A DNA stretch of 64,000 bases from Thermophilibacter provencensis (lineage in GTDB: Bacteria > Actinomycetota > Coriobacteriia > Coriobacteriales > Atopobiaceae), in assembly GCF_030372065.1 (NCBI RefSeq), contig NZ_JAUDEA010000001.1, positions 124,001-188,000 of the forward strand, in the 5' to 3' direction. Shown here piece by piece: positions 35,772 through 39,105 of this stretch. Position numbers and translations under genes: made by a program. Numbering within the stretch: the stretch's first letter is position 1; each line of letters opens with the position of its first letter. The notes beneath the pieces were generated by a model that saw only the letters and a program-made list of their open reading frames with translations, had not been told where the DNA came from and did not search any database.

Positions 35772-36221
35772 ATGGCCATCAAGGACGTGCTGCCAAGCCT
35801 GCGCCGCGAGCGCGGGCTCACGCAGGAGGAGCTGGCTCGCAGGCTCTACATCACCCGTCAGGCCGTGAGCCGCTGGGAACGCGGAGAGACCTCGCCGGGA
35901 ATCGACATGACCAAGCTCATCGCGCGCGAGCTCGACGTCCCCGTGACCGAGCTGCTGGAGATGCCCGAGCACTATTGCCAGAGCTGCGGCATGATGTTCA
36001 CCGGCCCTGACCAGCTCGGGCACGACGCCGACGGCACCGAGAACCCCGACTTCTGCCGCTGGTGCTACGACGGCGGCTCTTACACCTACGAGACCACGAT
36101 GGACGAGATGATCGAGGACTGCGCTCCGCGCATGGCCGAGGCGATGGGCTGGACCGTGGACGAGAGCGCGTCGCTTCTGGGCGCGGTGCTGCCCACCCTC
36201 GAGCGCTGGCGCGACGCGTAG
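35772..36221 (+). CDS. XRE regulator fused to a zinc-ribbon domain
   Basis: 149 aa. N-terminal HTH (LRRERGLTQEELARRLYITR, then QAVSRWERGETSPGIDMTKL) followed by a zinc-ribbon YCQSCGMMF...PDFCRWCYDGG (four Cys, about residues 66-100) of the putative zinc-ribbon_2 type and a helical tail with APRMAEAMGW. Widespread in Firmicutes and Coriobacteria as a presumed stress or metal regulator. The ATG at 35772 follows GGGAGGCCGAC. Confidence 0.87.
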   Translation: MAIKDVLPSLRRERGLTQEELARRLYITRQAVSRWERGETSPGIDMTKLIARELDVPVTELLEMPEHYCQSCGMMFTGPDQLGHDADGTENPDFCRWCYDGGSYTYETTMDEMIEDCAPRMAEAMGWTVDESASLLGAVLPTLERWRDA

Positions 36222-36251
36222 GGCGACGGGGCGAGAAGGACGTCGGGTCGG

Positions 36252-36818
36252 CTACGCGCCGGCGAAGTAGGGGCACGCGCCCGCGAGGCACGCGCCGTTG
36301 CGGTCGGAGACCGCGCAGCGCGGCTCGGAGGCCGCGGGCGCGAGCTCCACGCCGAGCAGGCGCTCGAACCACGGAACCGCACCACGCACGACGATGCGGG
36401 CGTCGCGCTTGCAGCAGCGCGGGGCGCCCGCCTCGGCGATCGCCCGCAGCAGGTCGGAGACCATGAGCTGGCACTCGCTCCAACCCTCGGCCCTGAGCGG
36501 GGCGTTCTCCAGCAGGATCGCGAGCGCCATGCCGCACGAGGCTGCGGCGCCGCACACGCCCCAGCGCGCGCACGCCGCGCCGGGCACCGCCGCCGAGCGC
36601 GCCCGGAGCTCGGCGAGCTGGGCGGCGAGGTCCCCCTCGCCGCGCGCGTTGCGGACGCAGGTGACGAGCGCCGCCCCCGCCAGATAGTGGTGCACGGGCC
36701 CAAAAGCGTCACACTCCGGCGCAGCCATGAGCTCCTCAAGGAGGTCGGCGGGGCTCAGCGCGTCGCTCTTCTCGCAGATTCTTGTGGCCCAGGCGTATGC
36801 GTCCTGCTGGTCGCTCAT
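36252..36818 (-). CDS. DUF5714-domain cysteine-rich protein
   Basis: 188 aa. The central block CGAAASCGMALAILLENAPL and the signature GAPRCCKRDARIVVRGAV match DUF5714, with a further Cys-rich C-terminus (EPRCAVSDRNGACLAGACPY). Function unknown. Divergent from the ArsC-ArsR fusion, with 101 bp between starts containing an ArsR-type operator, so it is probably under the same control. The many cysteines would suit metalloid binding (inference). Confidence 0.75.
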   Translation of the reverse strand: MSDQQDAYAWATRICEKSDALSPADLLEELMAAPECDAFGPVHHYLAGAALVTCVRNARGEGDLAAQLAELRARSAAVPGAACARWGVCGAAASCGMALAILLENAPLRAEGWSECQLMVSDLLRAIAEAGAPRCCKRDARIVVRGAVPWFERLLGVELAPAASEPRCAVSDRNGACLAGACPYFAGA

Positions 36819-36830
36819 TGCATCCCCCAC

Positions 36831-36852
36831 ATATTGATAACTATCGATATAT
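36831..36852. promoter_or_regulatory. ArsR/SmtB-like operator between divergent genes
   Basis: Imperfect dyad ATATTGATA...ATCGATATAT with a short centre, AT-rich, of the kind bound by ArsR/SmtB repressors. A second partial copy (TTTATCAAT) occurs at about 36879-36887. It lies between DUF5714 and the ArsC-ArsR fusion. Confidence 0.6.
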
Positions 36853-36919
36853 TGCTGAGTGTATACTCTGCATCGACGTTTATCAATCTGTTGGGCAGGC
36901 GGGCGCGAAGGGGGCCACC

Positions 36920-38188
36920 ATGGGCGTCACGTTGGGGGAAGCGGGCAATCGCAGGCCGCGCGTGGCGTTTGTGTGCACGCACAACTCATGCCGGAGCCAG
37001 ATCGCCGAGGCGCTCTCCCGGGTGCTCGCCTCGGACGCGTTCGAGGCGTTCTCGGCCGGCACGCACCCCGCAGACGCCGTGAACCCCGACGCGCTGCGGC
37101 TCCTTCGCAACGTGCCGGGAGTCGACACGGCAAGGCTTCGTCCCAAGGCGCTCGACAAGCTGCCCCCGGTTGACGTCGTGGTCACGATGGGCTGCGGCGT
37201 CCAGTGCCCGATGCTGCCCTGCGCGCATCGCGAGGACTGGGGGCTCGAGGATCCAACAGGCAGGGGCGACGAGGCATTTCTCGCCACCATGGACGAGATT
37301 GAGCGCCGGGTGCGCGACCTTGCGGAACGCCTTGCGCATTGCGAAGTCGCCACAACGGACAAGAGCGACGGGCTCTCTGCGGACTTGCTCAAGGCGCTTG
37401 CGGACGAGAGGCGCCTCGACGTCCTGCGCGCGCTCTCCCAGGCCGACGAGCTCTGCGCCTGCAAGCTGCTCGAGCGCCTCGACATCAGCCAGCCCACGCT
37501 CTCCCACCACATGGCGCTGCTCGTCTCCGCGGGCCTCGTCAGCGCGGAGCGACGCGGCCGCTGGACGCACTACCGGCTTGAGCGCGGGCGCATGGCTCGG
37601 CTCGCCGCCGCGCTCGAAGAGCTTGCAAACGCGAAGCCGTCGAACCCGGACGCAGCCGTTCCCGCCTCCGCACGCAAGACTCTCTACCTCGTTGGCGGCC
37701 CGATGGGCGTCGGCAAGTCGACCGTCTGCCGCGAGCTCAGCCGCATGCTGCCGCGCTCGGTTCTTCTCGACGGGGACTGGTGCTGGCAGGCGGACCCCTT
37801 CCAGGTGACGCCCGAGACCAAGGCGGTGGTGCTCGACAACATCTGTCACGCGCTCGGCAACTTCCTGCGCTGCGACGCCTACGAGAACGTCGTCTTTGGC
37901 TGGGTGATGCACGAGCGAGCGATCGTCGAGGGGATTCTCGCGCGCCTGCCAATCGCCGAGTGCGGCGCGGCGGTGCGGTGGGTCTCGCTCGTGGCGAGCG
38001 AGGAGGAGCTGCGCAGGCGTATCGAGGGTGACGTGTCCGCCGGGCTGCGCAAGGCGAACGCGGTGGAGCGCGCCCTCGCCTACCTGCCCCTCTACCGGGA
38101 GCTTGGCTCCGAGCTCGTGGACACCACCGGGCGCTCGCCCCGCGAGGTGGCGGAGCTCGTCGCGGGCGGTGCGCGGAAGGGCCGCTAG
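36920..38188 (+). CDS. Triple fusion: ArsC-type arsenate reductase + ArsR repressor + P-loop kinase
   Basis: 422 aa. Residues about 12-145: low-molecular-weight-phosphatase-type arsenate reductase (VAFVCTHNSCRSQIAEAL, then VVTMGCGVQCPMLPC and REDWGLEDPTG). Residues about 155-240: ArsR helix-turn-helix (LLKALADERRLDVLRALS, ELCACKLLERL with the Cys-x-Cys metalloid site, SQPTLSHHMALLVSAGLVS). Residues about 258-420: P-loop domain (YLVGGPMGVGKSTVCREL, LLDGDWCW) like small-molecule kinases. The frame has no internal break. The ATG at 36920 is preceded by a weak GGGGGCC site. Confidence 0.85.
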   Translation: MGVTLGEAGNRRPRVAFVCTHNSCRSQIAEALSRVLASDAFEAFSAGTHPADAVNPDALRLLRNVPGVDTARLRPKALDKLPPVDVVVTMGCGVQCPMLPCAHREDWGLEDPTGRGDEAFLATMDEIERRVRDLAERLAHCEVATTDKSDGLSADLLKALADERRLDVLRALSQADELCACKLLERLDISQPTLSHHMALLVSAGLVSAERRGRWTHYRLERGRMARLAAALEELANAKPSNPDAAVPASARKTLYLVGGPMGVGKSTVCRELSRMLPRSVLLDGDWCWQADPFQVTPETKAVVLDNICHALGNFLRCDAYENVVFGWVMHERAIVEGILARLPIAECGAAVRWVSLVASEEELRRRIEGDVSAGLRKANAVERALAYLPLYRELGSELVDTTGRSPREVAELVAGGARKGR

Positions 38189-39105
38189 GCCTCAGGAACC
38201 ATGCGCGCGTCTGCCCACCATCCCGGCACCAGCTCGCCGAGCCGAGCCGTGCGTCGCGACTCGTAGTCGAGAAGCACCTCGACCTCCCGCGCCGCGGGGT
38301 CGAGCTGCATCATGAGCTCCCGGCACGCCCCGCACGGCATCCCGGCGCCCCCGCCCGGCATGACGGCGACGATCCTTCGTATCCGCGACTCCCCCGCCGT
38401 GACCATGGCCGCGATCGCCGAGCGCTCCGCGCACATCCCGAGCGAGCACGCCGTGTCGATGCAGACGCCCACGTAGACGCTGCCGGCCTCCGTGAGCAGC
38501 GCCGCCGCGACGGAGCCCGCCTCCACGAGCGGGGAGATCTCGCGGGGGCGCTGCACGCGCCGGGCAGCAAGGTAGAGGCGGTCCCAGGAGTCGTCGTAGC
38601 ACGCGAGCGCCCGAGCCTCCAGCGCGCGCACGAAGCGGTCCTTGCCGTCGCAGTAGCCCTCGATGTCGTACGGAAAGCGCCGTGCGAGTGAGCGCTTGAG
38701 GGCGGCGTACTCGTCCCGCGCGTCCTCATGGGAGCGCAGGTAGTCGCAGAGCGCCAGGTGACGGACGATATTCTTCCTGTCGCCCGCGTCAAAGACATGG
38801 ACCTGATGCGTGCGCTCGTCGCCGCCCTTGCGAAAGTAGCGCCGCCCCGAGATGCCGAACTCGCCGAGGCACTCATAGCCCAGCTCGCGCATGCGCGGCT
38901 CGACGGCGTCGACCTCCCCGAGGCTGCGCGCCGCCACGAGCACGTCCACGACCGGCTTGGCGGCTAGCCCCGGCACCGACGTGCTCCCGATGTGCCAGAT
39001 TGCGAGCGTCGCCTCGCCGAGCGCGCCGCAAAGGCGGTCGCGCTCCTCCCGAAAGCGCTGCTGCCAGGACGGGTCGTAGTCAACGACGGTAACGTGTTGG
39101 GGCAT
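38185..39105 (-). CDS. Fusion: GrpB nucleotidyltransferase-like + cytidine deaminase-like
   Basis: 306 aa. Residues 1 to about 170 are a GrpB-family nucleotidyltransferase-like domain (VDYDPSWQQRFREERDRL, IWHIGSTSVPGLAAKPVVDV). Residues about 175-306 have a cytidine-deaminase zinc site: CAERSAIAAMV and PCGACRELM with the preceding TEAGSVYVGVCIDTA. The ATG at 39105 follows GGTGCCTCC; an upstream in-frame ATG is unconserved. Stop codons overlap the ArsC-ArsR fusion's by 4 bp. Reaction partner of the GrpB half unknown. Confidence 0.8.
   Translation of the reverse strand: MPQHVTVVDYDPSWQQRFREERDRLCGALGEATLAIWHIGSTSVPGLAAKPVVDVLVAARSLGEVDAVEPRMRELGYECLGEFGISGRRYFRKGGDERTHQVHVFDAGDRKNIVRHLALCDYLRSHEDARDEYAALKRSLARRFPYDIEGYCDGKDRFVRALEARALACYDDSWDRLYLAARRVQRPREISPLVEAGSVAAALLTEAGSVYVGVCIDTACSLGMCAERSAIAAMVTAGESRIRRIVAVMPGGGAGMPCGACRELMMQLDPAAREVEVLLDYESRRTARLGELVPGWWADARMVPEA

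Follow-up and report, generated by a model that had tools for sequence, protein, structure and literature searches.

A single open frame in Thermophilibacter provencensis joins an arsenate reductase (ArsC) domain, an ArsR-type repressor domain and a P-loop kinase domain, and lies divergent from a gene for a protein of the DUF5714 family (Table 1; coordinates refer to the window, the whole 64,000-nucleotide stretch of DNA that was analysed). The core working unit is the ArsC-ArsR fusion together with DUF5714. Judging from sister sequences, the triple fusion is most likely the outcome of the capture of a neighbouring kinase, which then rides as cargo of the cassette and would not be a designed component of it. 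We consider it probable that the locus serves Coriobacteriia as a compact cassette for responding to arsenic, in which a kinase has been captured and DUF5714 handles arsenite.

Table 1 Features of the fusion locus in window coordinates (L numbers denote loci)
Feature	Position	Strand	Remarks
HTH/zinc-ribbon gene that originally adjoined the kinase	35772..36221	+	PF01381, PF12674; directly before the stand-alone kinase in L009, L010/L028 and L011/L029
Putative inserted cassette (DUF5714 divergent from ArsC-ArsR)	36222..37669		By comparison with cassette-free L028, L029 and L009
DUF5714 protein, 188 aa, divergent partner	36252..36818	-	PF18978, E 3.3e-50; 7 Cys invariant in 53 sequences
Operator-like palindrome 1	36833..36848		Exact ATYGAYNNNNRTCRAT
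Operator-like palindrome 2	36872..36887		Exact ATYGAYNNNNRTCRAT
ArsC-ArsR-kinase fusion gene	36920..38188	+	422 aa; L003/L022 and L004/L023 have the three domains in one frame too
ArsC (LMWP-type arsenate reductase) domain, residues 14-138	36959..37333	+	C19/C24/R25/S26 loop, C92 and C96, D111-P112
ArsR/SmtB repressor domain, residues 154-237	37379..37630	+	C179-A-C181
P-loop kinase domain (AAA_18), most likely captured	37670..38185	+	Stand-alone-gene homology from residue 251

Domains of the fusion protein

The 422-residue frame runs without interruption from the ATG at 36920 to the stop at 38188, and three Pfam families match it above their gathering scores: LMWPc at residues 15–134 (PF01451, E 9.5e-17), HTH_5 at residues 162–208 (E 1.6e-12) and AAA_18 at residues 257–371 (PF13238, E 3.3e-15; its score of 57.1 against a cut-off of 29.4 identifies a P-loop kinase). 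Together with the CX5R nucleophile loop of the reductase, C19-T-H-N-S-C24-R25-S26, and the P-loop at residues 259–268, these matches confirm the claim of an earlier, sequence-only reading that the frame comprises an ArsC, an ArsR and a P-loop kinase part. In the structure model of the fusion, pLDDT is mostly above 70 within the three domains and drops below 50 at residues 1–10, 147–151, 238–251, 290–294 and 417–422; the low-confidence linkers and the pTM of 0.49 suggest that the domains are flexibly strung. The Foldseek relatives of the model are the arsenate reductases 3rh0, 3t38 and 1jf8, the ArsR-type regulator 7p6f and, for the kinase part, 2bdt, 2vli, 3t61 and gluconate and shikimate kinases.

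The best solved relative of the ArsC domain is the arsenate reductase 3t38 (sequence match, E 1.8e-23), the thioredoxin-coupled Cg_ArsC1′ of Corynebacterium. Residues C19, C92 and C96 of the fusion align with it, and C92 and C96 fall on its MGCGDVCP, so that the two proteins have the MGCGxxCP arrangement in common, but the 213-residue chain of 3t38 matches the ArsC domain only. The two extra redox cysteines (C92 and C96) are kept in 15/15 non-identical ArsC-ArsR fusions, and these 15 frames (25 with duplicates) all retain CTxNxCRS, MGCxVxCP, DWGLxDP and CAC. The domain scores far below the NCBIfam arsenate-reductase cut-offs (NF010053, 70.5 versus 215; TIGR02689, 66.8 versus 157.6; TIGR02691, 59.4 versus 174.3), and the ArsR part passes the cut-off for metalloregulators (HTH_metalloreg NF033788 of NCBIfam, 88.4 bits versus 55). 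A paired-cysteine (CxC) metalloid site is a feature of Escherichia coli ArsR; the CAC of the 15 non-identical fusions lies in the ArsR domain, at C179-A-C181 in the window.

Pairwise dN/dS is 0.13–0.16 for ArsC (3 pairs), 0.05–0.27 for DUF5714 (15 pairs), 0.28–1.07 for ArsR (15 pairs) and 0.29–0.61 for the kinase in 34 of 36 pairs (0.12 and 0.87 in the remaining two). By these ranges, ArsC and DUF5714 are clearly constrained and ArsR less so.

Probable capture of the kinase by insertion of a cassette

A view of the kinase as a designed third component of the chain is not supported. Two observations speak against it: sister species encode the kinase in a gene of its own at this site, and pairs of ArsC-ArsR and DUF5714 occur without a kinase in other genera. 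The kinase ATG of L028 (Thermophilibacter provencensis), L029 and L009 lies 12 bp past the stop of the HTH/zinc-ribbon gene, and neither DUF5714 nor ArsC-ArsR is present at the kinase site. In the window, the stop of the HTH/zinc-ribbon gene at 36221 is followed by DUF5714 and then by ArsC-ArsR, and homology to the kinase resumes at 37670. Because the kinase is separate and only 12 bp downstream in the cassette-free sisters, we infer that two adjoining genes were separated by the insertion of a cassette some 1.45 kb long. The fusion contains no methionine usable as the old kinase start between Met225 and the P-loop Met262; the ArsR frame runs into the kinase, which is thus left without an ATG of its own and is now the third domain. 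The cassette-free sister site shows how an insertion turned an adjacent gene into the third domain of a protein.

The resemblance of the kinase to solved structures is general and gluconate/shikimate-kinase-like. It shares the fold and the P-loop with 2bdt, which also matches by sequence, and with 2vli, a tunicamycin resistance protein, but differs from such kinases in being fused to ArsR. It may retain an older, unrelated small-molecule activity and would then merely be co-produced with the cassette. On the minus strand, window positions 38188-39105 encode a fusion of a GrpB domain (PF04229, 1.7e-51) with a cytidine-deaminase-like domain (PF00383, 9.6e-6). A relative of this protein is found after the kinase in L006/L026, L008/L027, L010/L028 and L011/L029, and none was seen in L003–L005, L007 and L009.

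Distribution of the fusions

The three-domain architecture and the adjacency of DUF5714, both of which the sequence-only reading had proposed to check elsewhere, recur in other genomes (for the former, L003/L022 and L004/L023), DUF5714 remaining divergent from the fusion. Among the 31 genomes of the genus sample, three have a three-domain match (the genome of the window, G000, with G026 and G009), three have ArsR-kinase (G027, G006 and G003) and five have ArsC-ArsR without the kinase in that frame (G011, G007, G001, G017 and G020); in several others the kinase is present and the remainder absent. DUF5714 is kept next to ArsR-kinase in G027, G006 and G003, in which there is neither an ArsC domain in the ArsR-kinase frame nor any other ArsC match to the query, so the reductase is dispensable in these three. 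A scan of a one-genome-per-species collection, which starts from exact peptide patterns and may miss distant copies and own-genome records, yielded 65 loci; all three domains are in frame only in L022 and L023 (Olsenella MAGs), the sequences of which are identical to those of G026 and G009.

At least 10 of the 246 Coriobacteriia genomes that make up the class sample carry ArsC-ArsR in one frame. DUF5714 is present in 8 of these 10 fusion genomes (G000, G011, G069, G087, G104, G132, G200 and G255) versus 35 of the 236 others (Fisher p 1.7e-5) and, with our own genus excluded, in 6/8 versus 33/225 (Fisher p 3.4e-4), p values that are only a guide because the genomes are related and not independent. 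In all eight paired genomes, DUF5714 is divergent from the fusion. The two fusion genomes that lack it are G226 and G208. In G226 (L165), the fusion forms the end of an arsA-acr3-[ArsC-ArsR] run, an arrangement that connects fusions of this type with arsenic. In G208 (L164:6643-7353), the ArsC-ArsR copy is degenerate: CRS is replaced by CRG and CAC by CAR, and neither DUF5714 nor a known pump was found within the 14 kb read.

The DUF5714 protein and its neighbourhoods

The description of the divergent gene product as a cysteine-rich DUF5714 protein holds, both in its Pfam match and in its seven invariant cysteines (Table 1). Positions invariant in 53 DUF5714 sequences include G40-P, H43-H44, C83, W86-G, C89-G, PR-C135-C136-KR, C168, N174, C177 and C182. 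The model of the protein is all-helical (pLDDT 80.3, pTM 0.84). A structure search of the model gave no PDB match at E ≤0.001 (best 0.79), and comparison of the sequence with the PDB gave nothing meaningful (best E 1.9, a designed protein); neither route to a function yielded a clue. Vicinal thiols are known to bind arsenite. The NCBIfam model of the metal-binding double selenoprotein MbdU (NF045648) matches DUF5714 at 64.9 bits, far below its cut-off of 600, and the DUF5714 frame has no internal stop that could encode Sec, of which MbdU has two. The vicinal CC of DUF5714 is notable both for its thiols and because CU is the motif listed for the matching MbdU (PMC13188914), to which the invariant CC may correspond. 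Our search of the open-access literature found no paper naming DUF5714.

PF18978 was detected in 43 of the 246 class genomes and in 0 of 14 control genomes, and the search is hence without an outside positive control. We read 40 DUF5714 neighbourhoods (L121–L160) from 39 of the 43 positive genomes. Nine contain an ars gene: six have an ArsC-ArsR fusion, L127 has a divergent ArsR, L121 has DUF5714 divergent from acr3-arsC-arsR, and L122 (G005) has the order arsR-arsD-arsA-DUF5714-acr3, with DUF5714 between arsA and acr3 (ArsD, 121.6 bits versus 90; ArsA, 1e-97). The acr3 of this last locus (L122:6157-7302) is above cut-off yet contains an in-frame TGA, and the single-contig genome has a second acr3. 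The other 31 neighbourhoods display no ars gene (about 7 kb, blastp 1e-5); they comprise 8 of the 16 close DUF5714 forms (51–68% identity) and 23 of the 24 distant forms, and it is these neighbourhoods that speak most strongly against a role of DUF5714 in arsenic alone. Near four of the distant forms (L146, L150, L152 and L159) there are methyltransferases whose best NCBIfam model is arsenite methyltransferase, at scores far below its cut-off.

Outside the class, DUF5714 is fused to ArsC in Firmicutes (L038, L040, L041 and L042, of which L040 was confirmed by Pfam). It also matches seven plasmid records (23–36% identity) and no phage record. Among the plasmid copies, that of Lachnospira eligens lies in a consecutive arsR, DUF5714, arsC series, that of Paraclostridium adjoins a gene annotated as arsM and has an arsR close by, and that of Selenomonas has no ars neighbour. 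Since DUF5714 recurs in arsenic loci, the earlier suggestion that it is a metalloid partner is a fair reading, and an uncharacterised domain is thereby tied to arsenic through several distinct genome arrangements.

Operator-like palindromes

The spacer between DUF5714 and the fusion contains ATYGAYNNNNRTCRAT twice, without mismatch. With at most one mismatch allowed, the window has 4 matches versus 0.87 expected, and 0 of 100 shuffles reached 4, although this count is not blind because the pattern was picked after the spacers of relatives had been viewed. Our own genome holds three exact sites, two of them at this spacer, and 0 for the reversed-pattern control; the third is at G000:C30:39841-39856 (L163). 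The exact motif is found twice upstream of DUF5714 in 6/6 kinase-fused loci of the genus (L001 and L003–L007) and once in L034. Of the neighbourhoods L121–L160, 6/9 with ars genes and 0/31 without them contain it. It is absent from the ArsC-ArsR loci L012–L015 and L018 (genus two-domain) and L134, and from L122 and L127, in several of which variants are visible by eye. The ArsR-like operator that had been proposed from the sequence thus has a plausible counterpart in two palindromes, putative sites conserved across the kinase-fused loci.

Arsenite pumps

Across the class, ACR3 above cut-off was found in 60 of the 246 genomes, ArsB in 31 and ArsP above cut-off in 61; of the 14 known genomes used as controls, 6 to 8 were positive for these families. 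The eight genomes with a DUF5714-paired fusion are all outside these sets. The search of our own genome covered ArsB, ArsP, ACR3 and aquaporins; it found no aquaporin, and its one ACR3-model match was weak, at 20.6 bits versus a cut-off of 282.8; a hidden pump of these families was rejected on this basis, as none of them has a match above cut-off. The genome is 94.7% complete, and a pump could be missing from its assembly; the completeness of G011, G069, G087 and G104 is 99%. Not all carriers are without a pump: G020, a genome of the genus outside the class sample, has both an ArsC-ArsR fusion and an ArsP gene.

Comparison with known systems

ArsRC fusion proteins are the subject of Chen et al. 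2022 (Environ. Microbiol. 24:1977, cited in PMC9479143), and for arsRC-arsB of Leptospirillum ferriphilum one product is described as both ArsR and ArsC (PMC4443643). As in these proteins, repressor and arsenate reductase are combined in one chain in the window. The name of the published proteins suggests that ArsR comes first in them, whereas the window has the reductase first, the repressor second and the kinase third; furthermore, the window locus is without a linked pump gene and has DUF5714 as its divergent partner. The link to DUF5714 and the lack of a known pump among the families searched set the locus apart from the published ArsRC fusions. With canonical ars operons (arsRBC, arsRDA-acr3) it has in common the ArsR-type control over a reductase, a likeness that extends to DUF5714 itself in the arsenic operon of G005, but the genome of the window has no ArsB, ArsP or ACR3 above cut-off. 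No title on an ArsC-ArsR-kinase fusion is among the open-access literature matches listed.

A model of the cassette

Combining these findings, we propose that the ArsR part represses both divergent promoters. Incoming arsenate would be reduced to arsenite by the ArsC domain, and arsenite would bind to the nearby Cys-Ala-Cys and release the repressor, so that arsenate could be sensed without a separate reductase; the reductase may in this way feed or titrate its own repressor, titration having been the suggestion of the sequence-only reading. DUF5714, the sole other gene found under this operator, would take up the arsenite by binding, hand-over or conversion in cells for which the searches gave no ACR3, ArsB or ArsP. 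The core unit is likely to work like the published ArsRC fusions. Besides the neighbourhoods without ars genes, the model has against it the lack of the exact operator in several ArsC-ArsR loci, the three relatives whose ArsR-kinase frame goes without ArsC, the weak constraint on ArsR and the low NCBIfam scores of the ArsC domain. As ArsR-ArsC fusions are already known, the novel part would be the arsenic role of DUF5714, which appears from genome comparison to handle arsenite in genomes that yielded no known pump. A more far-reaching proposal, towards which we are slightly more sceptical than inclined, is that DUF5714 represents a new arsenic-detoxification family that replaces export, its vicinal Cys-Cys binding or converting ArsC-made arsenite, and that the cassette is an export-free ars system of gut anaerobes in which a reductase-repressor fusion senses arsenate directly. 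If true, there would be arsenic resistance in gut bacteria without any pump found.

The kinase could instead serve the arsenic response by using ATP to phosphorylate a metabolite, a step that would be coupled to reduction and sensing. Its linkage to ArsR in 6 of the 31 genus genomes fits this explanation, as do a P-loop and a DGD motif that are intact across the aligned kinases and the constraint on the kinase in the dN/dS values given above. In sister species, however, the kinase stands alone with neither DUF5714 nor ArsC-ArsR beside it, and the genus triple fusions are the only ones among the 25 ArsC-ArsR frames to include it; its constraint is not visibly stronger fused than alone (3 stand-alone pairs), and the modelled chain, with its low-confidence linkers at 147–151 and 238–251 and low pTM, argues in the same direction. 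We regard a working role in the response as unlikely. Separate kinase genes in relatives together with a frame error in the window were one of the two refutations that the sequence-only reading named for itself. The separate genes do exist, in the cassette-free species, and would suit a frame or assembly error joining two genes; the error does not, as the fusion is open in three separately assembled species (84–88% identity) and ArsR-kinase in three more, and these six assemblies leave it a negligible probability.

The arsenic reading of the cassette has to be weighed against one in which the ArsC part acts as a thiol enzyme of another sort, for example a phosphatase-like one, ArsR senses a signal other than arsenic, such as antimony, a different soft metal or an oxidant, and DUF5714 serves that stress. 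ArsC and low-molecular-weight phosphatases are of one fold, the domain scores under the curated arsenate-reductase cut-offs, and ars genes are missing around many DUF5714 loci; but among solved chains the best match is an arsenate reductase, with which C19, C92 and C96 align, and such fusions and DUF5714 adjoin arsA, arsD and acr3 elsewhere, which makes this alternative quite improbable. Much the same holds for the idea that the cassette is being lost and that the chain is a decaying by-product, mere read-through that still makes the kinase. The absence of ArsC from three genus relatives (L005–L007), the weak constraint on ArsR and the degenerate copy without DUF5714 in G208 are all consistent with decay. 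On the other hand, the ArsC domains of the two other triple fusions are 95–96% identical to that of the window and evolve at the low dN/dS given above, the catalytic and ligand residues are retained, and both operators persist in 6/6 kinase-fused loci; decay is accordingly a poor candidate beside a functional arsenic-response cassette.

Two further loci deserve mention in their own right. In Olsenella profusa (L031:7160-8428), the cassette adjoins a frame that by eye resembles a phage terminase, a hint of a mobile surrounding. In a Eubacteriales MAG (L074:97-1257), one 387-residue frame combines RNase H (PF00075, 3.8e-30) with ArsC (3.2e-20).
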